A stretch of 64,000 nt of DNA from Bacteroidota bacterium (GTDB taxonomy: Bacteria > Bacteroidota > Ignavibacteria > Ignavibacteriales > Ignavibacteriaceae). Position numbers and translations under genes: made by a program. The notes below the pieces were generated by a model that made no database searches, was not told where the DNA came from, and worked only from the letters and a program-made list of their open reading frames with translations. Where the stretch lies: assembly GCA_021815405.1 (NCBI GenBank), contig JAKAGV010000003.1, positions 124,001 to 188,000 on the forward strand. The letters are read 5' to 3'. The number at the start of each line of letters is the position of its first letter. The first letter of the stretch is position 1. Positions 32,470 to 55,486 of this stretch are shown one piece after another.

Positions 32470-32704
32470 AGTTAAAAAATCTTTTTATTATTGTCTGCTG
32501 TTTTAATACTAATAACAATAATGCAGCAATTTTAATATAGGTTGATGGGTAGTTAAATTTAGTAAGTTAAGCAATAAACTTTCTCAAATACTCGACAAAC
32601 CTCACATTAAGCAGATTATTTTGGCAGTTCTCCACATTACTTGACGATTCGTTTGTATTTTAAAATTTAATTTGTGTATATTCTACCCACCTATAACATT
32701 CTAT

Positions 32705-34864: not shown

Positions 34865-34875
34865 ATAATCATTTG

Positions 34876-35214
34876 ATGAACTTTGAAATGAAAAATATAA
34901 TAGATCAAGCAGACAGCTTGATGCAGGTTAAAAAATCCGACTTAAAACCCGGCGACGAAGTAAGATTAAAAACCAGGAACTCTGTTTATTCTATTAAGGT
35001 CGACAACGAAGGAGGATTTATTGTTTCCGGCGGATGGTTCGATAAAATGTCAATGTCCCCTGCAAAGACAAAAATAAACGGCTGTACATGGGGCGGCAGT
35101 ATTATTAAAACCGATATCATAGCCGCCTGCGGATTGAACCTGGAATTCGGCAATAGGCTTTTAACAAGTACTATTCAAGAGATTATATACTTCCCCGGAA
35201 GTATAAAGAACTAA
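34876..35214 (+). CDS. Small hypothetical protein
   Basis: A 112-residue soluble protein that I do not recognise. The N-terminal helix (NIIDQADSLMQVKKSDLK) is followed by a beta-rich part: GDEVRLKTRNSVYSIKVD, GGFIVSGGWFDKMS, and GCTWGGSIIKTDIIAACGLNLEF. It resembles a small SH3-like or cupin-like barrel, but that is only a guess. It lies 11 bp after the ABM gene and is probably co-transcribed. ATG 34876 is used; the preceding TTG (34873) is possible. Confidence 0.65.
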   Translation: MNFEMKNIIDQADSLMQVKKSDLKPGDEVRLKTRNSVYSIKVDNEGGFIVSGGWFDKMSMSPAKTKINGCTWGGSIIKTDIIAACGLNLEFGNRLLTSTIQEIIYFPGSIKN

Positions 35215-35463: not shown

Positions 35464-38220
35464 ATGGTCGGCGAAACAATTCTTCACTATAAAATTATTG
35501 GAAAGCTTGGCGAAGGCGGAATGGGCGAAGTTTACAAAGCTCAGGATACAAAACTAGACCGCTTTGTTGCATTAAAATTCCTTCCTTCTGAAATGACTGC
35601 TTCTGAAGAGAATAAAGCAAGATTTATTCAGGAAGCAAAAGCTGCCTCAGCAATGAATCATCCGAATGTCTGCACAATTTATTCTATAGAGGAATACAAT
35701 AAGCAGCTTTTCATTTCTATGGAATTTATTGATGGCATAACTCTCCGAAATAATAAACAGCAACTGTCCGAAAAAAGAATTTTAGACATTGGAATTCAAG
35801 TAGCGGAAGGCTTGGCTGCTGCGCATGAAAAAGGAATTGTTCACCGCGATATAAAGCCTGAGAACATCATGATTCGCAAGGATGGTATTGTGCAGATAAT
35901 GGATTTCGGATTGGCTAAGCTTAGAGAAACATCCGGTGTTTCAAGATTGACTAAAGCTGGTACAACAATGGGAACGATGGGCTATATGTCCCCCGAACAA
36001 GTGCAAGGATTAGATGTTGATCATCGTACTGACATATTTTCTCTTGGAGTTGTTCTTTATGAACTTCTTGCAGGTGAATCTCCATTTAAAGGAGTTCATG
36101 AAACTGCAATAATGTATGAGATTGTAAATGTTGATCCTCCGCCGATAGCCACGGTTAAAGAAGGAATCGATCCACAGTTGGACGGAATTATACTTGAGTG
36201 TCTTGAGAAGGACAAGGACGAAAGGTTCCAATCTGCGAAGGAACTTGCCAAGAATTTAAGAAAGATTCAGCGAACGTTAACTTCTGGTAGATCAAGCAGA
36301 ATGTATAGCGTTAATACGCAGGCTTTCAATGCAAAGAGCGGACAAACTACTGCTGCTATAAATACTACAACTAAAACTTCGATTGGAGAAATACAGGTTA
36401 AAAATTTATTCAAAAATATTTTCTATAATCCTAAAATATTCTGGTCAGCAGCGGTAGTATTATTTATTGCAGTTCTTTTTCTTCTGATCTTTTCTGTCTT
36501 CAACAGAACAAAAGTTGAGATGCAGGAAATTAAAGCTACAATTTTAACTCCGCACGGAATCAATTATGATAATACATTAGGAAGCAATTTATCAATTTCA
36601 CCCGACGGTCAATATATCTCGTTTGTTGGAGTTGATTCCTCAGGTACAGAAAAATTATGGGTAAGACCAATTAATTCATTAACTGCCAGACCGTTAACAG
36701 TTGCGACAAATGAGGCATATCCGTTCTGGTCTCCCGATAGTAAAACAATAGCTTATTTTGATAAAGGAAAGCTGCTGAAAATATCTCTTGATGCGGGAAC
36801 TTCACTTCCTATTTGTGATGCTGCTGCAGGCAGAGGAGGAGCGTGGAGTGTTAACGGAACAATTGTCTTTTCTCCAACTCCATCCGGTCCTCTTTATAAA
36901 GTTCCTTCTTCAGGCGGAAAGCCGGTAGAAATTATTAAAACGGATACAACAATCCCGGCTCAGAGCTTAAGATGGGCTTTCTTTTTACCTGACGGGAATC
37001 ATTTCATATATTCCACCGAAAATAGCTACACCGGATCAACACCTACTGACGCTATCTTCGCAGCTTCTTTAGATAATCCGAAACCGAAAAAACTTATGAT
37101 CACCTCATCCAACTGCCAATATGCAGATGGGTATTTACTTTTTGTACGCCAGTCAATTCTTCTTGCGCAAAAATTTGACCCAGGCAAATTAAAGCTTGAA
37201 GGAGAAGCTATGCCTGTGGCCGAAAATATTCAGTATTGGGATTCAAGAATCTCCGCTACATTTGCTGTTTCGCAAAACGGAAAGCTTGTGTATCTTCAAG
37301 GATATCAAAATGATCAAAGCCTGGTTTTGCTGGACAAAAACGGTAACGAGATAAGGAAATTATCGAATATGATTCCGTATAACTCAGCGCAGTTCTCACC
37401 TGGTGGAAATAGAATTGTGTGCGATCTGTACGATCCTAATGAAAAGAAATATGATGTTTGGGTCTATGATCTTAATAGAAGTGTTTGGACAAGGCTGACA
37501 TTTGACAAAGGCGATATAGTTCCTAACTGGACATTAGATGGGAAGCAGATAACATACGGTTCAAATAATAACAGCTCCGTTTTTAATGCTTATATAAAAA
37601 ATGCTGACGGCTCCGGCGAGGCAGCACTATTATATAAATCAAATATCACTAAAATAGTAACCAGTATTTCGCCGGACGGTAAATATTTCTTATACACAGC
37701 GATAGATTATTCCGGAAGTTCTAGCGGCTATGATATATTTTTATTGCCGGCACAGGGAGATAAAAAACCTGTTCCAATAGCTGCAACTAATTTTAATGAA
37801 TTCGACGCACAATTCTCACCCAATATGAAATGGATTGCTTATCAGTCGGATGAATCCGGAAAATACCAAATTTATGTAATCCCATTTAACCCAAGTAATC
37901 CGGCAGAAAACTCTAGCGGCAAATGGCAAATATCCGTTGATGGAGGAGTTGGTGCTAAGTGGATGAATAACGGAAGAAGTATTTATTTTGTTACTCCGGA
38001 TAATAAGATAATGGGTGTGGATGTAAATGAAAACGGCTCATCGATTTCACCTGGGAAACCCTATGTTGTATTTACTCCGGGCAATACAAAAATTTTAAAA
38101 CTTTTCGATATAAATAAAACCGGTACAGAAGTAACTGCAACTATACCGAACGGGCAGAATGCCCAGCCGTCAATCACATTAATCGATAACTGGCAAAAGG
38201 AAGTTGAAGGTAATAAATGA
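35464..38220 (+). CDS. Ser/Thr kinase with TolB/PD40 propeller sensor (K1)
   Basis: A PknB-type kinase, 918 residues. The cytosolic kinase domain (about 8-275) has the glycine loop KLGEGGMGEVYKAQD, VALKF (lysine), HRDIKPENIM and IMDFGLAKL. It is therefore expected to be active. A juxtamembrane linker follows, then one transmembrane segment near 326-346 (FWSAAVVLFIAVLFLLIF). The periplasmic part is a PD40/TolB-like beta-propeller: SISPDGQYISFVG, PFWSPDSKTIAYFD, AQFSPGGNRIVCDL, AQFSPNMKWIAYQSDESG. It probably senses an extracytoplasmic ligand. GAGG precedes the ATG. The stop overlaps the next kinase-like gene (ATGA). Confidence 0.94.
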   Translation: MVGETILHYKIIGKLGEGGMGEVYKAQDTKLDRFVALKFLPSEMTASEENKARFIQEAKAASAMNHPNVCTIYSIEEYNKQLFISMEFIDGITLRNNKQQLSEKRILDIGIQVAEGLAAAHEKGIVHRDIKPENIMIRKDGIVQIMDFGLAKLRETSGVSRLTKAGTTMGTMGYMSPEQVQGLDVDHRTDIFSLGVVLYELLAGESPFKGVHETAIMYEIVNVDPPPIATVKEGIDPQLDGIILECLEKDKDERFQSAKELAKNLRKIQRTLTSGRSSRMYSVNTQAFNAKSGQTTAAINTTTKTSIGEIQVKNLFKNIFYNPKIFWSAAVVLFIAVLFLLIFSVFNRTKVEMQEIKATILTPHGINYDNTLGSNLSISPDGQYISFVGVDSSGTEKLWVRPINSLTARPLTVATNEAYPFWSPDSKTIAYFDKGKLLKISLDAGTSLPICDAAAGRGGAWSVNGTIVFSPTPSGPLYKVPSSGGKPVEIIKTDTTIPAQSLRWAFFLPDGNHFIYSTENSYTGSTPTDAIFAASLDNPKPKKLMITSSNCQYADGYLLFVRQSILLAQKFDPGKLKLEGEAMPVAENIQYWDSRISATFAVSQNGKLVYLQGYQNDQSLVLLDKNGNEIRKLSNMIPYNSAQFSPGGNRIVCDLYDPNEKKYDVWVYDLNRSVWTRLTFDKGDIVPNWTLDGKQITYGSNNNSSVFNAYIKNADGSGEAALLYKSNITKIVTSISPDGKYFLYTAIDYSGSSSGYDIFLLPAQGDKKPVPIAATNFNEFDAQFSPNMKWIAYQSDESGKYQIYVIPFNPSNPAENSSGKWQISVDGGVGAKWMNNGRSIYFVTPDNKIMGVDVNENGSSISPGKPYVVFTPGNTKILKLFDINKTGTEVTATIPNGQNAQPSITLIDNWQKEVEGNK

Positions 38221-38531
38221 TTGACGAAACTATTCTTCACTATAGAATAATTGAAAAGCTTGGTGAAGGTGGCATGGGCGTCGTATACAAAGCCGAAGAC
38301 TTAAAGCTTAAACGCATTGTTGCTTTGAAATTTTTGCCTTCTCATGTTACATCATCCATAGATGACCTTGCACGATTCAACCAGGAAGCGCAAGCTGCGG
38401 CAATTCTTAATCATCCTAATATCTGCACAATCTATTCTATTGAAGAAGAAAACCGAAAGCAATTCAATGATATAATTCAAGTTATTAAGAACAAGGTGAA
38501 AGAACAGCAAAATATTTTAGCGTTGAATTAA
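38217..38531 (+). pseudogene. Truncated Ser/Thr kinase (N-lobe only)
   Basis: An open frame of 104 residues with a perfect kinase beginning: IDETILHYRIIEKLGEGGMG, VALKFLP and a helix C-like LARFNQEAQAAAILNHPNICTIYSIEEENRKQ. It then switches to an unrelated lysine-rich tail (FNDIIQVIKNKVKEQQN) and stops. The catalytic loop, DFG and C-lobe are missing, so it cannot phosphorylate. It overlaps the stop of K1 as ATGA, so it may still be translated. It looks like a deletion product of a full kinase gene; a short regulatory peptide is possible but unproven. Confidence 0.8.
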
Positions 38532-38579
38532 AATGAGTAGGAATAATAAATCAAACGAATAAATTTTTGAGTGATTATT

Positions 38580-38687
38580 ATGAACGTTGAAATAATTCAT
38601 CATTACAAAATACTAGAGAAACTAGGCGAAAGCAGATCTGTCCGCCGAAGCCCTATATTAATTACTAAGGTGAACTATGATAAGTGA
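38580..38687 (+). pseudogene. Decayed kinase 5' end before K2
   Basis: A 35-codon frame MNVEIIHHYKILEKLGES matches the shared kinase leader up to the glycine loop. It then reads SRSVRRSPILITKVNYDK and stops inside K2. The CTGTCCGCCGAAGC stretch after the glycine loop recurs in the two other remnants. The AAGGTG ribosome site of K2 lies within it. It is either a relic, or a leader peptide whose translation affects K2. Confidence 0.7.
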
Positions 38688-40791
38688 AACTATATTACAC
38701 TACAAAATCAGTGAGAAACTTGGCGAAGGCGGAATGGGCGTAGTCTATAAAGCCGAAGATAACAGATTGAAACGTGAAGTAGCCATCAAATTTTTGCCAC
38801 ATCATATTTCTGCTAATAAAGAAGAACGTCAGAGGTTTGAAATTGAAGCACAAGCGGCTGCCTCACTCAATCACTCGAACATCGCCACTATTTATTCAAT
38901 AGAAGAAAGCGGCGAAGAAATATTTATCGTAATGGAATACATAAACGGGCAGGAATTAAAGAAGAAGATCGAGAGCGGGAAATTATCAATTGATGAATCT
39001 TTAAAAATTATAGAACAAATCTCACTTGGCTTGAAAGCAGCACATCAGAAGGGAATAATTCACCGCGATATAAAAAGCAGTAACATAATGATTACGCCTT
39101 CCGGGCAAGTTAAGATTATGGATTTTGGTCTTGCAAAAGTTAGCGGCAGCAGTCAAATAACAAAGGTAGGCACAACAATCGGAACAATTGCCTACATGTC
39201 TCCCGAACAAGCTCGTGGCGAAAGTGCTGATCACCGTTCCGATATCTGGGCAATGGGAATAATCCTATATGAAATGCTAGCAGGGAATGTACCATATGGC
39301 GGTGAATTTGAACAAGCAATTATTTATTCTATCCTAAATGAAAATCCGGTATCGATCTCCAATTTACGTCCCGAAGTTCCGTTAAAGCTTGAGCAGATTC
39401 TTAATAAACTGCTTGCAAAAGATAAGGAACAAAGGTTCCAGAATATGGAAGATTTTATAAAAGATTTAAGTGAGATTAAAAGGAATGATTTTATGGAAAA
39501 TGAAAACGAAGGTAAAACTATTGCAGTTTTGCCGTTTGAAAATATAAGCCCAGATAAAGAGACGGATTATTTTGCTGATGGACTTGCGGAGGAACTTATT
39601 ATCAATCTTTCTAAAATTAAGGAAGTCAGTGTTGTTGCGCGGACTAATTCCATGCAGTATAAAGGAACAAAGAAGGACATTGGAACTATCGGCAGAGAAT
39701 TAGGTGCACGTTATATAATGGAAGGGAGTGTAAGAAAATTTAAAGACGATGTAAGAATTTCCGTACAATTGATTGATGTTCATAAAGGCACTCAATTATG
39801 GGGCGAGACTTACAAAGGCAAGCTTGCCGATATTTTCGATATTCAGGAAAACGTTTCTAAAGAAATTGTAGATGCACTTATGGTTAAGCTCTCACCGGTT
39901 GAGAAAGTAGTTCTAACAAAGAAGCAAACAACAAATGCTGAGGCATATGATTATTATCTTAAAGCAAGAAATTTCCTCGCCAATAGGACAAGAAACAATA
40001 TTGATTTCGCTATACTACTCTGTCAAAAGGCGGTTGAACTTGATTCCCGCTTTGCTGCCGCTTATGCAGGACTTGGAGAAGCATATGCGATTATTTATCG
40101 AGATTTTGACAGAAAAGACATTTGGCTTGATAAGGCTTTAGATGCAAGTCTGAAAGCATTAATGTATGATTCAACTTTGTCTGATGCTTATGCTTCTCTT
40201 GGTTTATCTTATTTTGGTAAAAATGCACTTGATGATGCACTCACTTCCAGCAAAAAAGCCATCGAACTTGATCCAAATAATTTTAATGCATACTGGATAT
40301 TGTCTCGAATCTATCACACTACCGATAGGGATATAGAAGCACTCGAATGTTTGAATAAAGTTATATCTATAAATCCAAATTTCTTTACCGCCTATGATGA
40401 TCTTGAAATGTATTATGAAAGAACTAATGATGAAGAGAATTATAAAAAAACTCTTCAAAAAGTTGTTTTGATTGTTTCAAAGTATTTAATGCAGCATCCG
40501 GAAGATACATACCGGCGGATGGCTTATGCAGTTACTCTTGCAAAACTTAACAAGCTAGAGGAAGCGAAATCAGAAGGAGAAAAAGCCTTGGAACTCAGTC
40601 CGAACGATGCAATTATGATGTATTACGGCGCGTGTCTTTATGCAAGGCTTGGCGATAAACAGCGTGCTGTTGAACTTATTACTAACTCCGTAAACAACGG
40701 TTACGAAAATTTCGAATGGATTAAACGCGATCCGGATTTTAATAGTATCCGAAATGAACCCGGCTATAAAAAATTAATTGAAGGTAAGTAA
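38677..40791 (+). CDS. Ser/Thr kinase with FlgO/TolB-like domain and TPRs (K2)
   Basis: 704 residues. Kinase domain: KLGEGGMGVVYKAED, VAIKF, HRDIKSSNIM and IMDFGLAKV, with GTIAYMSPEQARGE as activation-loop end. From about residue 283 comes the FlgO/TolB-like domain found in COG5616 proteins (TIAVLPFENISPDKETDYFADGLAEELI ... YIMEGSVRKF), followed by about five TPR units (AYYDYYLKARN-like, FNAYWILSRIYH, AMMYYGACLYARLGD). No transmembrane segment is visible between kinase and TPRs, so the whole protein is probably cytosolic. It is a close paralogue of K3. It overlaps the decayed 5' end upstream. Confidence 0.92.
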   Translation: MISETILHYKISEKLGEGGMGVVYKAEDNRLKREVAIKFLPHHISANKEERQRFEIEAQAAASLNHSNIATIYSIEESGEEIFIVMEYINGQELKKKIESGKLSIDESLKIIEQISLGLKAAHQKGIIHRDIKSSNIMITPSGQVKIMDFGLAKVSGSSQITKVGTTIGTIAYMSPEQARGESADHRSDIWAMGIILYEMLAGNVPYGGEFEQAIIYSILNENPVSISNLRPEVPLKLEQILNKLLAKDKEQRFQNMEDFIKDLSEIKRNDFMENENEGKTIAVLPFENISPDKETDYFADGLAEELIINLSKIKEVSVVARTNSMQYKGTKKDIGTIGRELGARYIMEGSVRKFKDDVRISVQLIDVHKGTQLWGETYKGKLADIFDIQENVSKEIVDALMVKLSPVEKVVLTKKQTTNAEAYDYYLKARNFLANRTRNNIDFAILLCQKAVELDSRFAAAYAGLGEAYAIIYRDFDRKDIWLDKALDASLKALMYDSTLSDAYASLGLSYFGKNALDDALTSSKKAIELDPNNFNAYWILSRIYHTTDRDIEALECLNKVISINPNFFTAYDDLEMYYERTNDEENYKKTLQKVVLIVSKYLMQHPEDTYRRMAYAVTLAKLNKLEEAKSEGEKALELSPNDAIMMYYGACLYARLGDKQRAVELITNSVNNGYENFEWIKRDPDFNSIRNEPGYKKLIEGK

Positions 40792-40848
40792 AATCAAAAT
40801 TTATGGGCATAAAAAAATTATAGTTTATAAAAATTTTAAGGTGATGAT

Positions 40849-42987
40849 ATGGCTAATTTAGTTGGAAAGACAATTTCGCACTATAATATTCAAAATAAAA
40901 TTGGCGAAGGTGGAATGGGTGTTGTCTATAAAGCTGAAGATTTAAAACTTGGACGGAGTGTGGCAATAAAGTTCCTTCCGCCACATCTCGCATCTGCTTC
41001 CGAAAATAAATCAAGATTTCTACAAGAAGCCAAAGCTGCAGCTTCTTTAAATCATCCAAACATCTTAAGCATTTATGAGATTGATGAGCGGGATAGTTTT
41101 CTTTTTATTGTAATGGAGTTTATTGAAGGTGAAACTCTTAAATCTTATTTGGCACATCTTAAATCTGGCTCTGGTATTCCTTATGTAAAAGCAACAGATT
41201 GGCTGGCTCAAATAGGGCAAGGGCTTAAAGCTGCACACGATAAAAATATTATTCATAGGGATATCAAAAGCGAAAATATTATGATAACCGGAGACGGTAA
41301 ATTAAAAATTATGGATTTTGGATTGGCAAAGCTTCAAGGCAGTTCTGGTCTAACTAAGACAGGAACTTCTTTGGGGACACTATCCTATATGGCTCCTGAA
41401 CAGGCACAAGGGATGCCGGCTGATCACCGCTCCGATATCTGGTCACTCGGCGTTGTATTTTATGAAATGCTTACAGGTGAGACGTTATTTAAGGCTGAGC
41501 ATGAAGCTGCTTTATTGTATCTAATTGTAAATGAAGAACCGCCTGCACCAAGTCTGCTGGACAGAAAAATTCCAGGACAGATAGATCAGATTGTTAAGAA
41601 AATGCTCAATAAAGATCCCGGGCAGCGTTATCAAAATATAGACGAGTTGTTGAAATCTCTTAATGAATTGAAGGAAGATATAGACAAAGCCTCGTCAACA
41701 TCAAAACGCAAAGCCATTGCTGTGCTTCCTTTCGATAATATCAGCTCCGATAAAGAGAATGAATATTTTGGTGACGGTTTGACAGAAGAACTTATTGCCA
41801 ACTTGTCCCGGCTTAAAGAAATGCGCGTCATTTCAAGAACAACAACTATGCAGTATAAAGACACGAAGAAAGATATTAAAACAATAGGTAAGGAACTTGG
41901 TGCAAGATATATAATGGAAGGAAGTGTAAGAAAATTTCATGATGATTTAAGGATTACCGCACAGTTGATAGACGTAGACAGTGATGAGCAGCTATGGGCT
42001 GAAACTTATAAAGGTAAGTTAGCCGATATATTTGACATCCAAGAGAAAGTTGCAAAACAAATTGTTGATGCGTTAATGGTTAAACTTACTCCTACAGAAA
42101 AGGTTGAATTAACAAAACGCCCAACATTAAATGCCGAAGCATATGATTATAACCTAAGGGCAAGAAAGTATTTATATCGTCAATCAAAGAACAATGTTCA
42201 ATTTGCAATTCAATTTTTTGAAAAAGCTATCGCACTTGACTCGCGCTATGCGGAAGCATATGCAGGCTTAGCAGAAGCTCATGCAATAAGATATGCCTAT
42301 TTCGAAAGGAAAGAAACCTGGTTGGATAAGGCATTAGAACTAAGCTTGAAAGCAATAATGTATGACTCAACTTTGTCCGAAGCCTATGCAGCTCTGGGCC
42401 TTTCTTATTTTTATAAAGGAACGTTTGATGAATCATTGACCGCAGTGCAAAAATCGCTTTCACTTGATTCAAATAATTTCTTTGCTTATTGGATTTTAGG
42501 CAGAATTTATTTTACTACTGATAAAGATAAGGAGGCGGTCGAGCCTTTAAAGAAAGTCATTGAACTTAATCCGGAGTTTTATACCGCGTACATTGATTTA
42601 AGGATGGTATATGAAAAACTTGGTGATAAAGAAAATTTAAAAAATATTGTTAAGTCATCACTCGAATTCTTTCCTAAATTTTTGGAACAAAACCCGGACG
42701 ATGGAAGGGCAAGAATTTTATACGCCAGCATGTTATTGACCGAGGATAAAATTGAAGAAGCAAAAAAAGAAACGAGCATGGCTCTTGAATTGAGCCCCAA
42801 TGATAATGTTATGCTTTACAATGCAGTCTGTCTTTATTCAAGGATAAATGAAAAAAAGCTTGCTGTTGAAACTTTGAAAAATATTATTGCTACCGGATTT
42901 GAGCATTATGATTGGATTAAAAGAGATCCCGATCTTGAGAACATAAGGAATGAACCGGAATACTTGGAACTCATGAAAGGTAAATGA
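40849..42987 (+). CDS. Ser/Thr kinase with FlgO/TolB-like domain and TPRs (K3)
   Basis: 712 residues, built like K2: kinase motifs KIGEGGMGVVYKAED, VAIKF, HRDIKSENIM, IMDFGLAKL and SYMAPEQ. Then AIAVLPFDNISSDKENEYFGDGLTEELI begins the FlgO/TolB-like domain near 287, with YIMEGSVRKFHDDLRI, and TPRs follow. K2 and K3 align along their whole length, so they are tandem duplicates. The N-terminus (MANLVGKTISHYNIQNKI) departs from the ETILHYK leader of the other kinases. AAGGTG lies 6 bp before the ATG. It is the only full-length kinase in the middle of the array without a decayed leader or overlapping gene before it. Confidence 0.92.
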   Translation: MANLVGKTISHYNIQNKIGEGGMGVVYKAEDLKLGRSVAIKFLPPHLASASENKSRFLQEAKAAASLNHPNILSIYEIDERDSFLFIVMEFIEGETLKSYLAHLKSGSGIPYVKATDWLAQIGQGLKAAHDKNIIHRDIKSENIMITGDGKLKIMDFGLAKLQGSSGLTKTGTSLGTLSYMAPEQAQGMPADHRSDIWSLGVVFYEMLTGETLFKAEHEAALLYLIVNEEPPAPSLLDRKIPGQIDQIVKKMLNKDPGQRYQNIDELLKSLNELKEDIDKASSTSKRKAIAVLPFDNISSDKENEYFGDGLTEELIANLSRLKEMRVISRTTTMQYKDTKKDIKTIGKELGARYIMEGSVRKFHDDLRITAQLIDVDSDEQLWAETYKGKLADIFDIQEKVAKQIVDALMVKLTPTEKVELTKRPTLNAEAYDYNLRARKYLYRQSKNNVQFAIQFFEKAIALDSRYAEAYAGLAEAHAIRYAYFERKETWLDKALELSLKAIMYDSTLSEAYAALGLSYFYKGTFDESLTAVQKSLSLDSNNFFAYWILGRIYFTTDKDKEAVEPLKKVIELNPEFYTAYIDLRMVYEKLGDKENLKNIVKSSLEFFPKFLEQNPDDGRARILYASMLLTEDKIEEAKKETSMALELSPNDNVMLYNAVCLYSRINEKKLAVETLKNIIATGFEHYDWIKRDPDLENIRNEPEYLELMKGK

Positions 42988-43137
42988 TTTTCCGAACTTA
43001 ACTTAATTGGCTGTTCCTTTTTATAGCCGATAATTCTTAAATCAGAATCTTGAAAACTTTACAGTGCGTTAAGTAACAAAATGGAGATGATAATATTAAA
43101 AAAATAATGAGTGTGAAAAGTTCTATAAAGGCGGCTG

Positions 43138-43237
43138 ATGATTGGCAAAACAATTTTACATTTGCAAATTCTTTAAAACTATGCGAAGTCAGCCCTGTCC
43201 GCCGAAGCATCTTAATAAATATTAGGAACTTACTATG
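43138..43237 (+). pseudogene. Decayed kinase 5' end before K4
   Basis: MIGKTILHLQIL followed by a stop, then in another frame a degenerate LCEVSPVRRS. It matches the shared kinase leader up to the glycine loop with at least one frameshift. It carries the same CTGTCCGCCGAAGC segment as the remnants before K2 and K6. It ends at the K4 start (43235), whose AGGA site it contains. Confidence 0.7.
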
Positions 43238-45991: not shown

Positions 45992-48276
45992 TCGGTGAAA
46001 CTATTCTACATTATAAGATCATTAAGGAATTGGGAAGGGGCGGGATGGGAGTAGTTTACCTTGCTGAGGATACAAAATTAAAACGGCAGGTCGCTATAAA
46101 GTTTTTGCCTAAACAAATATCGGCAGACTCTGATGAGAGAAAACGCTTTGAAATTGAAGCACAGGCGGCAGCAGCTTTGAATCATTCCAATATTACTATA
46201 ATCCATGCAATTGAAAAAGAAGGCGATAATATATTTATAGTGATGGAGTTTGTTGATGGAATAGAACTAAAAGATAAAGTCAAATCCAGTACGATTTCCA
46301 CTAAAGAATTGGTAAATATTGCAATACAAATAGCGGAAGGATTGGAAGCCGCACATAAAAAAGGAATTGTACATAGAGATATAAAATCTCAGAACATTAT
46401 GATTACCAATGAAGGCAAAGTAAAGATAATGGATTTTGGGTTGGCTAAAGTAAAAGGCGGTTCACAGCTAACACAGATGGGCTCAACAGTCGGAACGATT
46501 GCTTATATGTCCCCTGAACAAACCAGGGGTGATGAGGTTGACCACAGAACAGATATATGGTCATTGGGTGTTGTAATCTATGAGATGCTGACTGGAAAAA
46601 TGCCTTTTAAGGGAGATTATGACCAGGCAATAATATATTCTATTCTTAATGATGAACCAGATCCGGTTACTGAAAGTGATGAAGGTTTAAAACATATAAT
46701 CGACAAATCTCTGGCAAAGAATCCTGCTGAGAGATACCAGACGGCAGGAGAGATTGCAGAAGATCTGATAACAATAGGTCAAGGCAGAGAGGTAAAGAGA
46801 GCTCAGACAAAGCAGTCAAAGCTTCCATGGATTGCTGCCGGAGCAGCGCTAATAGTAATTGCAATAGCGCTCTATCTTTTTATGCCTTTATCAAAAGGAG
46901 GAGGGGAAACAACAGCAGAAGTGAGGACAATAGCTGTACTTCCATTTGATGACCTTAGCCCGAAGAAAGACCAGGGATATTTTTCTGATGGATTAACAGA
47001 AGAATTTATAAACGTACTTTCAAGGAATCCAAAGCTTCGTGTTACAGCCAAGACATCGTCATTTTCTTTCAGGGGAAAAGGGCTTGATATTAAAACCATA
47101 GCAGCAAAGCTTAACGTGAAGAATATACTTGAAGGCAGTGTTCAGAAGGCAGGCAACAATCTTCGCATATCGGCGGACCTTGTTAATGTTAAGACTGATG
47201 CAACGCTATGGTCAAAAACTTATGATGGAACATTGAACAACATATTTGAGCTGCAGGATTCAATATCAGGAAATGTTGCAGAGGCATTAAATGCAGCGCT
47301 GTTTGGTAAAGAAGCTGCAGCGCCAGAACAGAAAACAAACCCCGAAGCTTACAACAATTATCTTCTTGGAAATCATTTTTCTGATTTGTATGGTAAAGAA
47401 AATTCTGAGAAAGCAGAAAGTTATTATAAGAAGGCGCTATCTATTGATTCCAGCTATGCACCGGCGTGGGTAGGGTTGTCTGAACTCCACAGTGACATGG
47501 CTAATAATGGATACGTACCAGTGGATGAAGCTAACAACGAAGCGCTCAAGGAATCAAAGAAGGCAATTGAACTTGACCCGAAACTTGCAGAAGCCTACTC
47601 GCAAATGGCATGGATAGAGAAAAACTATTACTGGAACTGGAAAGTCGCGGATGAAGCCTTAAAAAAGGCACTGGAATTAGAGCCGGAAAATTCAGATGTT
47701 ATTAACGGTGCTGCTCTTTTGGCGCACACACTTGGGCAGTTTGATAAAGCAATAAAACTCGAGCGCCGTTCAATTGAGATTGACCCGGTTGATGTTGATG
47801 GATACCTTAACCTCGGTCTTTCAACATGGTATAAAGGCTTACCGGACGTGTCAATTGGTGCCTTTAGAAAATGCCTGGAGCTGAGCCCGCAATTTCCGGA
47901 TGCGCATGTATTAATAGGTTTTGATTATCTTGAGAAAGGGATGCCAGACTCGGCAATGACTGAGATTGAAAAAGAACAAGATCCTTTCTGGAAAATGCAG
48001 GGACTTGCAATCGTTGATTTCACGCTGGGCAGAAAGAAAGAAGCAGATGCTGAATTAGCAGATTTAATTAAAAATTACGTGAACCGCGGTGCATACGAGA
48101 TTGCAGAAATATATGCTTACCGTGGAGAGAAGGACAATGCATTCAAATGGCTGGAAAAGTCTTACATTCTGAGAGATAGCGGTCTTTCGGAAATGGTAGA
48201 TGATCCGCTGATGCGTAACATAGTTAAAGACCCGCGCTACGAAGCATTTATGAAAAAGATGAATCTGCCATTGTGA
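45988..48276 (+). CDS. Ser/Thr kinase with FlgO/TolB-like domain and TPRs, membrane-anchored (K5)
   Basis: 762 residues. Kinase domain: ELGRGGMGVVYLAED, VAIKF, HRDIKSQNIM and IMDFGLAKV. A transmembrane segment lies near 280-300 (WIAAGAALIVIAIALYLF), so the FlgO/TolB-like domain (TIAVLPFDDLSPKKDQGYFSDGL) and the TPR array are probably periplasmic. K2 and K3 lack this anchor. About six TPR-like units follow (ALSIDSSYAPAWVGLSELHSD; ALELEPENSDVINGAALLAH). It is translationally coupled to K4 by a 4-bp ATGA overlap. It is more GC-rich and more distant in sequence than its neighbours, suggesting a separate origin. Confidence 0.93.
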   Translation: MIGETILHYKIIKELGRGGMGVVYLAEDTKLKRQVAIKFLPKQISADSDERKRFEIEAQAAAALNHSNITIIHAIEKEGDNIFIVMEFVDGIELKDKVKSSTISTKELVNIAIQIAEGLEAAHKKGIVHRDIKSQNIMITNEGKVKIMDFGLAKVKGGSQLTQMGSTVGTIAYMSPEQTRGDEVDHRTDIWSLGVVIYEMLTGKMPFKGDYDQAIIYSILNDEPDPVTESDEGLKHIIDKSLAKNPAERYQTAGEIAEDLITIGQGREVKRAQTKQSKLPWIAAGAALIVIAIALYLFMPLSKGGGETTAEVRTIAVLPFDDLSPKKDQGYFSDGLTEEFINVLSRNPKLRVTAKTSSFSFRGKGLDIKTIAAKLNVKNILEGSVQKAGNNLRISADLVNVKTDATLWSKTYDGTLNNIFELQDSISGNVAEALNAALFGKEAAAPEQKTNPEAYNNYLLGNHFSDLYGKENSEKAESYYKKALSIDSSYAPAWVGLSELHSDMANNGYVPVDEANNEALKESKKAIELDPKLAEAYSQMAWIEKNYYWNWKVADEALKKALELEPENSDVINGAALLAHTLGQFDKAIKLERRSIEIDPVDVDGYLNLGLSTWYKGLPDVSIGAFRKCLELSPQFPDAHVLIGFDYLEKGMPDSAMTEIEKEQDPFWKMQGLAIVDFTLGRKKEADAELADLIKNYVNRGAYEIAEIYAYRGEKDNAFKWLEKSYILRDSGLSEMVDDPLMRNIVKDPRYEAFMKKMNLPL

Positions 48277-48334
48277 AGAAATGGAAATAAAAAATTAAAA
48301 GAAAGTTATAAGGCTCTGACGATATGAGGTCATA

Positions 48335-48496
48335 ATGATTAGTGAAACGATATTACATTATCCGCCAATGGCGGATCTCCTCCAAAGGTGGATGAGCCTC
48401 TGGCTCAAGCCTTTGGCTGATAAAATTGAAGAGAAGCTTGGCGAAGGCGGACCTGCTCGCCGAAGCCATCAACACAATATAAAAGGTGTACTATGA
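48335..48496 (+). pseudogene. Decayed kinase 5' end with in-frame palindromic insertion, before K6
   Basis: A 53-codon open frame. MISETILHY, the kinase leader, is interrupted by 20 codons of inserted DNA (48361-48420), resumes as KIEEKLGEGG, then ends PARRSHQHNIKGVL. The stop overlaps the K6 ATG (ATGA), and the AAGGTG site of K6 lies inside. The frame is intact despite the insertion, so it may be translated as a leader peptide. Confidence 0.7.
48361..48420. repeat. 60-bp string of small palindromes inserted in the leader
   Basis: Exactly 60 bp that are absent from the homologous place in the other kinases. It is a chain of short triloop hairpins: TCCGCC-AAT-GGCGGA, TCCTCC-AAA-GGTGGA (one mismatch), GAGCC-TCT-GGCTC, and AGCC-TTT-GGCT. 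The length is a multiple of three, so the surrounding kinase frame is kept. Confidence 0.75.
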
Positions 48497-51189
48497 CAGG
48501 AGAGACAATACTACATTATAAAATTATTGAGAAGCTCGGTGAAGGCGGGATGGGTGTAGTTTATAAAGCCCAGGACACAAAGCTTGACCGATTAGTTGCA
48601 TTAAAATTTCTTCCTGCTCATGCTCTTTCAAACAGCGAAGATAAAGAAAGATTTATAAGGGAAGCCAAAGCCGCCGCATCTCTTAATCATCAGAATATTG
48701 CTCACATTTATGAAATCGGGGAGAGCAACGAATCCGGTTCCGGGAAGCAAATGTTCATCGCAATGGAATATATAGAAGGAAATACTCTTGAAGAAATAAT
48801 TCATTCGAAAGGCGGCTCGCCGCTTCCGTTAAAAACTGCTATCAATTATACAATTCAAATTGCAGAAGGACTTCAGGCTGCACACGAAAAAGGAATTGTG
48901 CATCGCGATATTAAATCTGCAAATATTATGGTGAATGAAAAAGACCAGATAAAGATTATGGACTTTGGTCTTGCAAAGTTTGCCGGCGGAACGAAAGTAA
49001 CCAAGCTGGGAACAACAATGGGAACCGCGGCTTACATGTCGCCGGAACAGGCGACCGGTGAAAAGGTTGATCATCGAACTGATATTTGGTCGCTTGGAAT
49101 TGTAATGTACGAAATGATTAGCGGTCAGCTTCCATTTAAGAATGATTACGAGCAGGCTTTAATGTATGCGATTATGAACGAAGAACCTGAACCACTTACT
49201 GCAAAGCGAACCGGAGTTCCAATTTCTATTGATGGAGTAATATCAAAAGCTCTTGCAAAAGATCCGGCGATGCGCTATCAGCATATTGATGAAATTCCTG
49301 CGGACTTAAGAACTATAGGATTAAAATCGGGAAGCTTAACTACAAGGATTTCATCCCAGACAAGAATGTTTCCATCACCACAAAAAAAATTATTAAAGAT
49401 AAAAAAGCAGATTCCATGGATGATTACTGGAGCTGTAATACTTGTTTCACTGTTTTTAATTTTCTTTTTCAAAATTAAAGATGGTTCGGAACAGGATATT
49501 ACAAAGCTGAGCGTTATAATTCCTCAAGATAATCCACCGTATTTAACAGATAACCAGATAATTTCTATTTCTCCCGATGGAAAAGATATTGCTTATGTTG
49601 GGACGAAGAATGGAAGCTCACAGATATTTTTAAGATCTATAACCGACTTTAATATGATTTCTCTTGAAGGAACCGAAGGCGCAGATAATCCGTTTTTCTC
49701 TCCCGATGGTAAATGGATCGCGTTCTTTTCGAATGGAAAACTTAAAAAGATTTCGGTAAACGGAGGAACTCCGGAAACACTATGCGATGCGCCGGGTGAC
49801 AGAGGAGGCTTTTGGGCAGATAACGGTAAGATTTATTTTTCCCCGAACTATGCTTCAGGAATAATGGAAATATCTTCTGACGGAGGAAATGAAACTGTAG
49901 TTACTAAACTGGATTCATCTAAAAGTGAACGAACACACCGCTGGTGCCAGGTGCTGCCAGGAAGTAAATGGATATTATATACCATCGGCAATCAGACAAA
50001 TGTTAATTCATACGATAATTCATTAATCGCGCTGCAGTCGCTGGTTAATAATAAACGATATATTCTTAATGTCCGCGGTGATGTGGTTAGGTACATCAAA
50101 CCGGGAATTTTGATAATTGCCAGGAACGACAATCTTTACGCTGCGAAATTTAATCCTAATGATCCAAATAATACTGCGCCTCCAATAACTATTCTTCAAA
50201 ACATTGCAGGAAATCCAAGCAGCGGAGTTTATTACTTTGGCATTTCGGAAAACGGTAGTTTAATATACTTGCCTGGAGCCGGAGAAAATAAATTTAGTCT
50301 TGCGTTCGTTGATATGACTGGGAAAATCGATCCGCTTAAAATTGATAAAGCTTATTACCAAAATCCGCGTTTTTCACCTGACGGTAGTAAGATAGCGATG
50401 ACGATCGGCAAAGTTCCGGAAAACGACGGCGATATCTGGATATATAATTTAAAAGAAAATTCATTAAGCAGGTTTACTTTTGGTGAAGGTAATTATAATC
50501 CCTTCTGGAGTAAAGACGGCAAATACATTTATTATGCATCGGGAATGAGCGGCTCCGAAGGCATTTTAATGAGACCGGCTGATGGATCAGCATCGCCGCA
50601 AATGATTTACCCGGATAAAGATTTAAATTATCCTCAATCAATAACGCCAGACTCAAAGAATTTGATACTAAATACGTTTTCGGGCTTAACTCAAGGCGAT
50701 ATATTAAGATTAAACCTTGTCGACCATAAGCTGGATACTTTGATGTCTACAAGAAATAATGAAGTAAACGGCGAAGTATCGCCGGATGGGAAATGGTTTT
50801 TGTATTCTTCAAATGAAACCGGGGACTTAGTAGTCTATTTAAAATCATATCCCGATTTAAAAGGCAAATGGCAGGTTTCAAACGGGAGCGGCTTAGATCC
50901 TATTTGGTCACCAAAAGGAAATGAAATTTATTATATAAATCCGCAAAATAAATTAGTGTCGGTTTCAATAATTAGTAAGCCATCCCTAATTATTGGAAAC
51001 CCTAAAGTTCTATTTGATGTATCAAATATATCATTACAAGATGCGCTGGGTGATGATTATGATATTTCACCCGATGGGAAGAAATTTATTTTTGTATTAA
51101 GAAATGACCAGCAAAAAAATCATAATGAAATAAATGTCGTTTTAAACTGGAAGAAAGAGCTGAAAGGAAAATTAGACTTAAAGCAATAA
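48493..51189 (+). CDS. Ser/Thr kinase with TolB/PD40 propeller sensor (K6)
   Basis: 898 residues. Kinase domain: KLGEGGMGVVYKAQD, VALKF, HRDIKSANIM, IMDFGLAKF and AAYMSPEQATGE. A transmembrane segment lies near 308-328 (WMITGAVILVSLFLIFFF). The periplasmic PD40 propeller has SISPDGKDIAYVG, PFFSPDGKWIAFFS, PRFSPDGSKIAMTI and EVSPDGKWFLYSS. It is the same architecture as K1 and K4 but a much more distant sequence, so it is an old paralogue. It starts at ATG 48493 inside the decayed leader and is followed by K7 after 10 bp. Confidence 0.93.
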   Translation: MTGETILHYKIIEKLGEGGMGVVYKAQDTKLDRLVALKFLPAHALSNSEDKERFIREAKAAASLNHQNIAHIYEIGESNESGSGKQMFIAMEYIEGNTLEEIIHSKGGSPLPLKTAINYTIQIAEGLQAAHEKGIVHRDIKSANIMVNEKDQIKIMDFGLAKFAGGTKVTKLGTTMGTAAYMSPEQATGEKVDHRTDIWSLGIVMYEMISGQLPFKNDYEQALMYAIMNEEPEPLTAKRTGVPISIDGVISKALAKDPAMRYQHIDEIPADLRTIGLKSGSLTTRISSQTRMFPSPQKKLLKIKKQIPWMITGAVILVSLFLIFFFKIKDGSEQDITKLSVIIPQDNPPYLTDNQIISISPDGKDIAYVGTKNGSSQIFLRSITDFNMISLEGTEGADNPFFSPDGKWIAFFSNGKLKKISVNGGTPETLCDAPGDRGGFWADNGKIYFSPNYASGIMEISSDGGNETVVTKLDSSKSERTHRWCQVLPGSKWILYTIGNQTNVNSYDNSLIALQSLVNNKRYILNVRGDVVRYIKPGILIIARNDNLYAAKFNPNDPNNTAPPITILQNIAGNPSSGVYYFGISENGSLIYLPGAGENKFSLAFVDMTGKIDPLKIDKAYYQNPRFSPDGSKIAMTIGKVPENDGDIWIYNLKENSLSRFTFGEGNYNPFWSKDGKYIYYASGMSGSEGILMRPADGSASPQMIYPDKDLNYPQSITPDSKNLILNTFSGLTQGDILRLNLVDHKLDTLMSTRNNEVNGEVSPDGKWFLYSSNETGDLVVYLKSYPDLKGKWQVSNGSGLDPIWSPKGNEIYYINPQNKLVSVSIISKPSLIIGNPKVLFDVSNISLQDALGDDYDISPDGKKFIFVLRNDQQKNHNEINVVLNWKKELKGKLDLKQ

Positions 51190-51199
51190 GATATTTTTT

Positions 51200-54100
51200 A
51201 TGATTGGCGAAATTATACTTCATTATAAAATTTTAGAAAAGCTCGGTGAAGGCGGGATGGGTGTAGTTTATAAAGCCGAAGATACAGAGTTGAAAAGATA
51301 CGTTGCACTGAAATTCCTCCCGACAAATATTTCATCCTCATCCGAAGAGGCGGCAATGCTTAAGCTTGAAGCACAGGCAGCCGCCATGCTTAACCATCCG
51401 AATATCTGTACCGTATATGCCATTGAAGAAGAAAAGAACGGAAGATTTATTTCTATGGAATACATGGATGGGATTACACTTAGAAAAAAGGTAGCGGATG
51501 GACCTTTAGCAATTGGAGAAGGTATATCTTATGCTATTCAAATAAGCGAGGCATTGAATGAAGCTCATAAGAAAGGCATGATTCATCGCGATATTAAGAC
51601 CGAAAATATAATGATCAATGCGAAAAATCAGGTTAAAGTTATGGATTTCGGTCTGGCAGCATTAAAAAATAGTATTACCGAATCTTCATTTAACGGCACA
51701 TTCGGAACTCTTGCCTATTTATCTCCCGAACAAACATTAAATAAGCCGCCGGGCTTTACCTCAGATATATGGTCTTACGGAATAGTTTGCTATGAAATGT
51801 TTACGGGCAGGCTTCCGTTTTTTGACGAATACGAAGCAGCTATAATTTATTCCATCCTTAACGAAGAACCGATACCGCCTTCACATATCAGACTGGATAT
51901 TCCTTTAGAACTGGAATCTATTATTCTGAAATGTATGCAAAAGGAAGAAGAGAACAGGTACCAAAGTGCGGAACAAATAGTTCATGATCTTAGGAAGCTT
52001 AACAAGGAAATTGAAGTTCAAAGTATAAGGGAAGATTTTAAGAAAGAGCATCATAAAAAAGAAAAGAAAGCTGCTGAACAGAAACAGGCAGCTATAGTCT
52101 ACATGCAAATTCAGAATTATCAGGAATTGTCGGGACTGATAGGTCAGGAAAATATGGTTGGCATGCTTGAAAGTTATTATCAGGTAATAAATTATTCTGC
52201 ACAAAAGTATGGCGGCACTGTAAACAAAACCAATACGGGAGAAGCTGTTCTATATTTTGGACTGCCGGAAGCAATAGAGAATTCTTCGCAAAAGGCATTA
52301 AGAGCTGTCATTGAAATAAAAGAAGGATTTATCTCGATAAGAAAAGAATATGGAATTTCCGATTTGTACAATCTGAATATTGCGGTAAGCAGCGGAACAG
52401 TTATAGCCGGCAGTATTTCTTCGGGTGATAAATTTGAGTATACTGTTTTAGGCGATGCGGTTGAAATTGCCTTAGCCTTGCTGGGATCTGCCGTAAACGG
52501 TCGGATATTGGTTAATTCAATAACTTATAAAATCTTAAAGGATGTTTTTGAATTCAAGCAGTTGAAATCAATCTCTTTGAAAGGCAGGCGCGATCCTGTA
52601 GAAGTATACGAGCTTTTAATAGACGGAATAAATTTTAAAAGCGATAATTTACAAACGACAAGGCTAATTAAATCGGAAATAGTCGGAAGGGCTGATGAGC
52701 TTAATCGATTAGAGAATTTAATTATAAACTCGAAAAACGGACAAGGATCGGTTGTAAGTATAATTGCCGATGCTGGTATAGGCAAATCAAGAATAATAAA
52801 TGAATTAAAAAAGAAAGACATAATAAAGCAAGTTATTCTTTTAGAAGGTAAAGCGGAGTCGACTGAAAAAAATGTTAGTTATCATCCTGTTACAGGCATA
52901 CTTAAGCAGTGGGCACAAATCCATGAAAATGATAATGAGAGTCAGGCTTTTACAAAGCTTGAAAATTCGATTCGTAGTTTGTTTAATGAAGAGACCGGAG
53001 AAGTACTTCCTTTCATCGCTGCTTTAATGGGATTTCGATTAAAAGGTGATTACGAAAAACGGATTGCAGATATTTCCTCAGAGGCTTTAAGCAAGTTGAT
53101 TCAGAAGAGCATGAGGGAACTGATTTTAAAAGGCTCTGAAGTTAATCCCATAGTTTTTATTATAGAGGATCTGCATTGGGCGGATCAATCTTCAATTGAA
53201 TTATTGCAGTCCTTGTTTCGACTTGCTGAAAATAACAGGTTATTGTTCATTTGCACGCTCAGACCTAATTATCATGAAACAGGGGATAAGATGATTTCTG
53301 CCATTAAAGAAAGGTATGCGGGCTTCTATACAGAAATAAAGCTTGAATCGTTAAACGTTAATGATTGCCTGCTTTTGCTTGAAAATCTCCTGAAGATGAA
53401 ATCCCTCCCTGAAAAGATAAAAGAATCTGTTTTAAAAAATACTGAAGGTAATCCTTTCTTTATAGAAGAAGTAATCCGTTCATTGATCGATGATAATATA
53501 ATAGAAATTAATAACGGTCAATTTATTGTATCGCATAGCGTCGAAGACATAGTTGTTCCGGTGTCTATAAAGGATGTTCTTCTTGCAAGGATTGATAAGC
53601 TTGATGAAAATGTAAAATATACTTTAAAAGTGGCTTCGGTAATCGGGAGATATTTTTTGTATGAGGTCCTAAAAAAGGTAATGGATAATAATAACGAATT
53701 GGAAAAGAATATCCTTACTTTAATAAAGCTGGAATTAATAAGAGAAAATAAGGATAAATCTGAAAGGGAATATTTATTTTATCATGCCCTTGCACAGGAA
53801 GCTGTTTATGATACTTTGCTATCCAAGAACCGCCAGGAACTTCACTTGAAAGTAGCTGATGCAATAGAAAGTGTATTTGAAGAAAAGACCGGCGATTATT
53901 TTGAAGTACTGGCTCATCATTACAGCCTGGGAGACGACAAAGAGAAAGCTGAAAAATATTTAATTAAAGCCGGCGAGAAAACTCTTAAAAATGCCGCCTC
54001 AAGCGAAGCCCTTAATTATTTTAATGAAGCATTAAACCTTTATATTCAAAAATATGGTGCTAACGTTGATAAAGGAAAAATTTTTATGCTTGAGAAGAAC

Positions 54101-55486
54101 ATCGGAATGTTGTTCTATAATAAAGGATATTTTGAAGACTCAATAGAACATTTCGGAAAAGCGCTTAGTGCGATAGACATTAAAACCGAAAGAAGTGATG
54201 TTGGAGAATTATTGAGGCTTGCTGCAAACTTTTCTTTTATTCTTATGAAACTTTATCTCCAGGTATTTAAACCAAAAAGAAAGCCGTCTGCAAGAGATTA
54301 CGAGCTGTTTGATATCTATTACAAGACCGCCAATGCGTATGCAAACCTTAACGGGAAGAAAATGTTTTTCTGGCTGATGGACCTGTTGAAAATGAAATTA
54401 GGCTTCGTGTTAACACCAGAAGATGGTTTTGAAACGTATGCATTTGGGAGTTCATTGTTTACTTACAGCGGGCTTTCTTTTTCGCTTGGGGAAATATTTC
54501 TGGAAAGAGCTAAGACAATAGCACGGGTTCATGGAATTGATGACATTTATAATATGAGTTATGATGAATCCATCTTTATTACTCTTAGCGGCAATTGGAA
54601 GAACTTTACTAAAATTAACGAAAGGCTTCTGGATCTAAAGCTGAGAGCGGGAGATTTATTCGGCGCTACTTACCAGATAAGCTGGGCATTATATATTATC
54701 ATTGGTAAAGGCAAATATGATTACGCAGAATATCTTATTAACAAAGGAGACGAAATAGCCGATACTTACGATTTTGATTACGGCAAGCTTTATATGCTTT
54801 CATTTAAAGCTGACTTGGAGCTTAGCAAGAGAAACCTGCATAAGGCAATAAGTTATTATAACGATACCTGTCTGCTCGCTGAAAAGCTCGGACTTACTTC
54901 GTGGATACTTGGCTTGTCTGGCAAAAGAACTAAAGCATACATCCTTCTTAACGATTACGCTTCGGCGAAAGATTCCATCAACAAAGCTGAACAAGCATCA
55001 TTGGTAGCTGATTCGCTTACACCTATGCTTCTTTCTTATTTTTATGCCTACAAGCTTTTTTATCATGTAAACCTTTTTAAAAAATCCCAAAATGATGTTC
55101 TTCAAGATGAAATTAAATTGCATGAAAAGGAAATCCTTCATAGATGGAAGTCTGTACTTAAGATTTCAAACAAAGTTGCTGAGATAAAACCTGAAGTGAA
55201 TATGATTGTAGGGAAATATTACCTTTGTAAAAATAAATTTAGAAAAGCGCACAAATATTTTTTGAAGAGCATTGCTTATGCAGAGCACCTTGAAGAACTT
55301 CCTGAACTGGGAAGAAGCTATCTCGAATTTGGCAAGTTCCTTTCTGACCCTAGAGTTCGTATTAAAAATAAAAATCCGGAAAAATATTTTACTGAAGCGG
55401 AGAAAATATTCGAAGCATTAAATCTTCAGTGGGATCTGAATGAATTAAAAAGAATTAGAAATTTTCAGCGGGGTAATCAGAATTAA
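51200..55486 (+). CDS. Ser/Thr kinase fused to degenerate cyclase, STAND/AAA ATPase and TPRs (K7)
   Basis: 1428 residues, no transmembrane segment. Kinase (8-275): GEGGMGVVYKAED, VALKF, HRDIKTENIM, VMDFGLAAL. A lysine-rich coiled coil (about 275-295) leads to a class III cyclase-like domain (about 296-470). There the metal-binding aspartates and the catalytic Asn/Arg are replaced (VYMQIQNYQ, TNTGEAVLYFG, GDAVEIALALL), so it should be inactive. An AAA_16-type ATPase follows, with Walker A ADAGIGKSR near 523 and Walker B IVFIIEDLHWAD near 650. About 500 residues of TPR-like helices end the protein. It resembles cyclase-STAND-TPR regulators to which a kinase has been joined. A signal integrator is a reasonable inference. 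Confidence 0.93.
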   Translation: MIGEIILHYKILEKLGEGGMGVVYKAEDTELKRYVALKFLPTNISSSSEEAAMLKLEAQAAAMLNHPNICTVYAIEEEKNGRFISMEYMDGITLRKKVADGPLAIGEGISYAIQISEALNEAHKKGMIHRDIKTENIMINAKNQVKVMDFGLAALKNSITESSFNGTFGTLAYLSPEQTLNKPPGFTSDIWSYGIVCYEMFTGRLPFFDEYEAAIIYSILNEEPIPPSHIRLDIPLELESIILKCMQKEEENRYQSAEQIVHDLRKLNKEIEVQSIREDFKKEHHKKEKKAAEQKQAAIVYMQIQNYQELSGLIGQENMVGMLESYYQVINYSAQKYGGTVNKTNTGEAVLYFGLPEAIENSSQKALRAVIEIKEGFISIRKEYGISDLYNLNIAVSSGTVIAGSISSGDKFEYTVLGDAVEIALALLGSAVNGRILVNSITYKILKDVFEFKQLKSISLKGRRDPVEVYELLIDGINFKSDNLQTTRLIKSEIVGRADELNRLENLIINSKNGQGSVVSIIADAGIGKSRIINELKKKDIIKQVILLEGKAESTEKNVSYHPVTGILKQWAQIHENDNESQAFTKLENSIRSLFNEETGEVLPFIAALMGFRLKGDYEKRIADISSEALSKLIQKSMRELILKGSEVNPIVFIIEDLHWADQSSIELLQSLFRLAENNRLLFICTLRPNYHETGDKMISAIKERYAGFYTEIKLESLNVNDCLLLLENLLKMKSLPEKIKESVLKNTEGNPFFIEEVIRSLIDDNIIEINNGQFIVSHSVEDIVVPVSIKDVLLARIDKLDENVKYTLKVASVIGRYFLYEVLKKVMDNNNELEKNILTLIKLELIRENKDKSEREYLFYHALAQEAVYDTLLSKNRQELHLKVADAIESVFEEKTGDYFEVLAHHYSLGDDKEKAEKYLIKAGEKTLKNAASSEALNYFNEALNLYIQKYGANVDKGKIFMLEKNIGMLFYNKGYFEDSIEHFGKALSAIDIKTERSDVGELLRLAANFSFILMKLYLQVFKPKRKPSARDYELFDIYYKTANAYANLNGKKMFFWLMDLLKMKLGFVLTPEDGFETYAFGSSLFTYSGLSFSLGEIFLERAKTIARVHGIDDIYNMSYDESIFITLSGNWKNFTKINERLLDLKLRAGDLFGATYQISWALYIIIGKGKYDYAEYLINKGDEIADTYDFDYGKLYMLSFKADLELSKRNLHKAISYYNDTCLLAEKLGLTSWILGLSGKRTKAYILLNDYASAKDSINKAEQASLVADSLTPMLLSYFYAYKLFYHVNLFKKSQNDVLQDEIKLHEKEILHRWKSVLKISNKVAEIKPEVNMIVGKYYLCKNKFRKAHKYFLKSIAYAEHLEELPELGRSYLEFGKFLSDPRVRIKNKNPEKYFTEAEKIFEALNLQWDLNELKRIRNFQRGNQN

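Follow-up and report, generated by a model that had tools for sequence, protein, structure and literature searches.

Rhs and CDI polymorphic toxin loci combine a constant 5′ half with an exchangeable 3′ half, contain leftover partial genes, and recombine in the constant part. The locus described here, an array of Hanks-type protein kinases from a bacterium of the class Ignavibacteria, resembles them in all of these features. However, its units are kinases rather than toxins, and its leftovers are in-frame 5′ ends lying upstream of intact genes, not displaced 3′ ends lying downstream. Taken singly, the kinases are like ordinary Hanks-type kinases with PD40, TPR or cyclase/ATPase sensors, having the same catalytic motifs and domain order, but here they are packed in a recombining array with a shared leader and with upstream open reading frames made of cut-off kinase starts (head-uORFs, or heads).

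Overlap of a stop codon with the next start codon in the form ATGA couples translation by termination-reinitiation, as measured in E. coli and Haloferax gene pairs (PMC6728339). The same type of overlap occurs at the heads, except that the upstream partner there is a truncated member of the downstream gene's own family. Rickettsia palindromic elements and bacterial MITEs (PMC2229807) are short palindromes that lie in frame in protein genes and are inserted in RNA genes. The palindromes that we describe, one type of which we call R1, share both properties, but they are located in partial copies of genes, next to intact kinases and tRNAs. No report of head-uORFs or of R1 was found in the open-access journal literature searched.

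We propose, with a probability of roughly two in three, that the array evolves by homologous recombination, that the leader is a frequent crossover zone, and that heads persist as coupled uORFs.

Results

Composition of the Array

The window, i.e., the whole stretch of 64,000 nucleotides analysed, belongs to a genome of 4.97 Mb (G000); positions are those of the window, and all features in it lie on the + strand. G003, G008 and G009 are genomes of the same genus, and L numbers denote fetched loci. Those relatives in the collection that have names are mostly Ignavibacteria metagenome genomes, and many relatives are fragmentary metagenome assemblies.

An earlier note on this DNA had described seven complete Hanks-type kinases on one strand, together with a truncated one, and both descriptions were borne out. 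Between 35464 and 55486 there are seven intact kinases (K1 to K7, with ORFs of 918, 704, 712, 918, 762, 898 and 1428 aa) and one internally deleted kinase, in the order K1-truncated-K2-K3-K4-K5-K6-K7 downstream of two anchor genes. Pfam Pkinase scores were 176–200 bits, and in an alignment of all seven the VA-K lysine and the HRD, N and DFG residues were invariant, so that 7/7 combine a Pkinase domain with the catalytic Lys, HRD and DFG. Eleven genes in the genome matched Pkinase, i.e., the seven array kinases, the truncated gene and three on other contigs. As the note had also stated, the leader varies little from kinase to kinase, K3 with MANLVGKTISHYNIQNKIGEGG being the exception.

The other halves of the proteins differ. 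According to Pfam, ORF calls and alignment, a PD40 propeller follows the kinase domain and a transmembrane segment in K1 (35464–38220; segment assigned by eye), K4 (43235–45991) and K6 (48493–51189). K2 (38677–40791) has a TolB/LpoB-like region and TPR, with no transmembrane segment; K3 (40849–42987) has TPR; K5 (45988–48276), whose start overlaps the K4 stop as ATGA, has TPR and a transmembrane segment assigned by eye; and K7 (51200–55486) has a guanylate-cyclase-like domain and AAA_16. These assignments agree with those made previously, except that the FlgO/TolB-like label is backed only by an LpoB match in K2 just under the cutoff (22.1 versus 22.3 bits), and that the TPR claimed for K7 was not among the Pfam matches at E 0.001. 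The variety of these halves (PD40, TPR, cyclase/ATPase) suggests that one kinase chemistry receives different inputs.

The truncated gene (38217–38531) overlaps the K1 stop as ATGA. G003 has an 865-aa kinase whose start is matched by the first ~250 nt of this gene (38217–38466) and whose end by its last 75 nt (38457–38531); because both ends of that kinase are kept, the gene is an internally deleted form of it.

The anchor genes encode a GAF-SpoIIE phosphatase of the PP2C type (32672–34003; Pfam SpoIIE, 165 bits, and GAF) and a protein with two ABM domains (34100–34864; Pfam ABM, 62 bits, two stretches). Homologues of one or both lay upstream of a same-strand kinase in 30 of 127 leader-type kinase loci, which were chosen by kinase similarity and are not a random sample, and homologues of both in 15 of the 127, including loci from Balneolales (L084) and Aliifodinibius (L079). 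A phosphatase adjoining kinases suggests that the two may form an opposing pair. An ORF of 113 aa between the ABM gene and K1 (34873–35214) had no Pfam match.

Unit Turnover Among Relatives

When related genomes were compared for gain and loss of units, as had been recommended, the orders in G000, G003 and G009 proved to differ. G003 has four kinases in 18 kb (K2-K6-other genes-865-K4), and G009 has eight on one strand in 19 kb (truncated-other-923-K2-K6-z-K1/K4-K5-K3′-K3). A deleted 865-aa kinase and a head precede K2 in G000, and an intact one and a head precede K4 in G003; G009 also contains a 156-aa remnant that joins leader and propeller. Gain or loss of units between conserved flanks was seen within the genus and in L044 and L065, the closest pair of loci outside it. 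In that pair the flanks match at 96.3% (1017 nt) and 98.0% (344 nt), and between them lie P-R in one locus and head-Q-head-P′ in the other, with P′ matching P over its first 851 nt only. Expansion of such kinases is common in the class, a K6 N-lobe query having matched 64 of 149 genomes.

Exchange Between Kinase and Sensor Halves

K1 and K4 share an identical run of 638 nt in the kinase half (35833–36470 and 43604–44241), which with two mismatches reaches left to 35703 in K1. When the same columns were permuted 1000 times, the longest run obtained was 105 nt. In 60-nt windows, K4 was 72–93% identical to its G003 orthologue in the kinase half and mostly 93–100% in the sensor, and K1 was about 85% identical to the same orthologue over its full length. 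The K4 sensor therefore groups with the G003 orthologue and the K4 kinase half with K1. An overlong identity tract between divergent flanks, as found here, is the mark of gene conversion, and the likely direction was from K1 to K4.

Mosaics of kinase and sensor halves were also found. In the adjacent G009 genes 917 and z, identity falls from 99% between the kinase halves to 28% between the sensors, the DNA match spanning nt 14 to about 780, and G009 923 and 917 are 85% and 38% identical in the same two halves. In a tree built with FastTree from 207 kinase domains, 138 rows carried a PD40 or TolB/TPR label (80 + 58, labelled by simple motifs, with 69 others left out). These labels required a minimum of 10 changes, and each label was far more clustered on the tree than after shuffling. 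Because the labels are clustered and yet change at least 10 times, the two halves usually stay joined, with an exchange now and then. These results support occasional, not free, exchange. The proposal that the locus generates kinases by duplication and domain exchange was thus partly upheld, by near-identical kinase halves on unrelated sensors, by the L044/L065 pair and by the differing unit orders. Congruent trees of the two halves together with a conserved gene order, which had been named as the pattern that would argue against ongoing exchange, were not found.

Heads Upstream of Kinases

Three 5′ ends among the units had been taken for decayed genes. This description fits the head before K4 (43138–43176), which is broken by a TAA at codon 13, but the other two are open and run into the start of the next kinase: that before K2 (38580–38687; 35 codons) stops 11 nt into K2, and that before K6 (48335–48496; 53 codons) ends in an ATGA overlap with K6. 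The K6 head contains an in-frame, palindrome-rich insert of 60 nt (48362–48421), present in G008 and absent from G009. The heads before the K4 orthologues of G003 and G008 are open. With two of three heads open here and the reading frame of heads kept across the class, we regard them as mostly not decay.

Among 222 leader-type kinases, collected by similarity to K4 and K6, 46 had a copy of the leader within 300 nt upstream; 0.0 were expected, the score never being reached by 20 column-permuted profiles. The larger final set contained 50 such heads among 227 kinases and, because the remaining 177 have none, heads are not needed. When the upstream DNA was searched with each gene's own N-terminus, copies were found at a relative score of 0.45 for 37/219 kinases and 0/798 other genes (protein genes in the same fetched loci), and at 0.35 for 44/219 and 2/798, respectively.

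The heads were sorted by similarity of their tails into 39 groups, a rough correction for shared descent that does not make them fully independent. In 33 of the 39 the head's own frame had its stop at +1 to +14 of the next start, against 2 and 2 groups for the other two frames of the same DNA; 12.3 groups were expected, and none of 100000 random-frame draws was as high as 33. The stop lay exactly at +4 (ATGA) in 28 groups, and six of the 39 broke the frame rule. A stop at +4 is automatic for one frame at any ATGA, but neither the openness of that frame nor its match to the frame of the head is. The distances ranged from 68 to 265 nt, and 30/39 equalled 2 modulo 3. Among head-less kinases there was no excess of small ORFs in the ATGA frame (28/174, versus an other-frame background of 35/219). 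The stop/start overlap is therefore kept against change of frame, as in a coupled gene pair.

Other accounts of the heads were rejected. Values of pN/pS were below 1 in 12/13 pairs, but cannot be used as a sign of selection on the head peptide because heads descend from real kinases. A −1 frameshift from head into kinase would meet at least one stop in the kinase frame in 45/46 heads, L171 alone having none. A head is also probably not a tandem copy of the start of its own kinase: its identity was 0.67 to its own leader and 0.79 to the best other, and the own leader had a median rank of 64 of 230, with rank 1 in 3/46. In 34 comparisons, however, the leader of a head-less relative was closer to the head in 13 and to the current leader in 19, with two ties, which favours neither the kinase's own former start nor the start of another kinase as the source of the head. 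In L257 and L274, several heads lie in a row before one kinase, with palindromes of both kinds.

Joins in the Leader

Different kinases follow the same head. Downstream of K5, the head region is followed by K6 in G000, by K4 in G008, and in G009 by an 88-nt K6 start and then a K3-type kinase. A block of 120–200 nt, comprising the last ~20 nt of a head, a palindrome, the start codon and some 30–90 nt of kinase, was 95–100% identical in the pairs L243/L248, L206/L204 and L258/L259, whose kinase domains are 62%, 73% and 59% identical. Because the heads to the left and the kinase domains differ within each pair, both edges of the block lie in leader sequence. In four of five one-way comparisons, the block partner was outranked in similarity by three or more other kinases, the exception being L248, whose block partner is its closest kinase (62% versus 61%). 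We had considered that the same element and kinase might stand behind different heads, but only the junction block is common to these pairs.

In a breakpoint map of all comparisons at ≥88% identity, with 21 informative breaks, 10/11 left breaks fell in the interval from −6 to +44 around the start codon, a position that is partly expected because genes outlast intergenic DNA. Of the right breaks, 3/10 were at +122 and two at +804/+851. That joins fall in the leader, as these alignments indicate, is new and goes beyond the earlier inference.

Heads might instead be the end stage of gene shrinkage, the body of a kinase that lies upstream of another being lost by internal deletions while its start and stop are kept because the next gene needs translation from upstream, with no exchange of leaders. 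We hold this to be less likely than not. It accounts for retention of the frame, and intermediates exist in the reduction from 865 to 104 aa in G000 and in the 156-aa remnant of G009; in addition, 13/174 head-less kinases have an ATGA overlap with a long upstream ORF. However, shrinkage leaves unexplained the identical junction blocks between unrelated kinases and the different kinases after one head, and long ATGA-coupled kinase pairs are rare.

Palindromes in Heads and Beside tRNA Genes

Many heads contain a palindromic repeat. Stretches from head to start gave a mean folding z of −1.82, against −0.11 for kinase coding DNA, with z below −2 in 17/46 and 0/46, respectively. In the window, a short palindrome, GGCGAAGGCGGACCTGCTCGCCGAAGCC, lies in the K6 head (48440–48467), and a copy in the K2 head (38625–38652) has a degraded left arm and gave no hairpin on folding. 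A hairpin conserved at the window's three heads was not borne out, two of the three stems being degraded. With two mismatches allowed the short palindrome had one copy in G000, which argues against its origin as a dispersed repeat; its 14-nt core occurs five times there, some copies inside looser palindromes elsewhere, and forms a real but weak family. Rfam gave no match at E 1 in the window between 34 and 56 kb, and a tRNA as the sole match in 11 loci.

A descriptor of a recurrent hairpin in the relatives matched 20/220 kinases, against 1 in shuffled, 4 in reverse-complement and 1 in coding controls. In the R1 model, which was built from 18 sequences selected for their pairing and therefore has a biased percentage paired, 13/18 pairs had a compensatory change, and covariation was 0.520 versus 0.197 after shuffling. 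Because G-U made up only 5 of about 303 paired cells, the structure may form in DNA and not in RNA alone. With only 150 candidates scored per genome, R1 had at least 55 matches in 14/30 genomes and none among the candidates from the four genomes of the window's genus (G000, G003, G008, G009), where a different short palindrome takes its place.

Once two duplicate rows had been dropped, the fetched loci contained 51 different R1 sites. Kinases followed 21 of these, 18 had a tRNA no more than 500 nt away, 4 were at contig ends, and 8 had other surroundings. Of the tRNA-near copies, 15 (in 12 separate loci) were flanked on the outside by at least 10 nt of that tRNA, as a raw count. R1 is thus a dispersed palindrome with conserved pairing, of the RPE/REP/MITE type, and its tRNA-linked copies rule out that it is kinase-specific. 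Copies lie inside partial tRNA copies beside intact tRNAs in L276, L277, L278, L283, L290 and others; L278 has three tandem 142-nt units by tRNA-Glu, and L283 two units by tRNA-Met. At L287:2578-2667, near an R1 copy and a kinase, ARAGORN calls a tRNA-Pyl with a CTA anticodon.

This distribution bears on a second alternative, which we hold to be rather unlikely: that a mobile palindromic element inserts at gene starts and restores the start, heads being by-products and the array merely a good target. The 21 places before kinases and the tRNA flanks speak for it, as do the recurrence of junctions at nt 13, 52, 60, 76 and 90 of the head and the presence of Y1 transposases in 10/12 genomes examined. 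Against it, R1 was not found in the window's genus, some heads (L076, L024, L025) have no palindrome, G024 has R1 and no Y1_Tnp match, and resumption of the head after the element gave a median rank of 18 of 114 in 18 cases, which is weak support.

A more speculative idea, to which we give a similarly low weight, is a docking system. A junction module of 120–200 nt (head end, palindrome, ribosome site, start and leader) would move between unrelated kinases by recombination in the two leader copies, and coupled translation would hook any kinase to a start already in place. Elements of this class would likewise park in partial copies of tRNA genes, next to the intact gene. If true, bacteria would have a module that enters genes at their starts and leaves them restored.

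Discussion

In the reading that we prefer, the array would diversify by homologous recombination as follows. The homology common to the units is the kinase half, above all its first ~120 nt (shared leader and P-loop). A crossover in the leader would place different kinases behind one upstream sequence, and a crossover near the end of the kinase half would place different sensors on one kinase. Many joins would leave a head behind, a kinase-gene 5′ end lying upstream of an intact kinase. As the in-frame stop of the head overlaps the next start, most often as ATGA, translation of the newcomer would be coupled to the resident start, by the route of termination-reinitiation. Both the recombination pathway and the coupling from head to kinase are inferred from sequence, and selection of exchange for diversity in the signals sensed may be a further element.

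The array could also be an ordinary set of paralogues undergoing birth, death and neutral gene conversion, with the heads as neutral debris. One of the window's three heads is indeed broken, and kinase expansions are common in the class. However, debris would not keep one frame, as 33/39 groups do against 2 and 2, nor would it keep insertions in frame, as with the 60-nt insert of the K6 head, and we regard this explanation as improbable. Integron-like gene cassettes are most improbable of all: hairpins precede units, and G000 has an integron-type integrase over cutoff (contig C1:79834-80769) and a second with a stop codon (C16:242522-243367), but both are far from the array, no over-cutoff integrase lies near it on contig C12, the units join at coding leaders whereas cassettes would join at a hairpin site following each gene, and the hairpin is unlike attC.

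The array offers a sequence-level view of the formation of new sensor kinases, with the joins visible. It also points to a small regulatory feature, a cut-off gene start that probably feeds ribosomes into the next gene and that precedes about one-fifth of the leader-type kinases examined. For fragments that look like debris, the practical consequence is that conservation of the reading frame should be checked before they are called decay. The analysis has also revealed a palindromic element, associated with partial genes for tRNAs and kinases, of which the literature searched contained no description.

The anchor stays in relatives and the content and order of units differ, as if diversification proceeded behind a stable phosphatase gene. 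At L026:16418-19732 and L027:2-5221, within the kinase array of G003, there are also two large proteins weakly similar to the protein encoded at 16028–17080 of the window, and a second SpoIIE-type protein.
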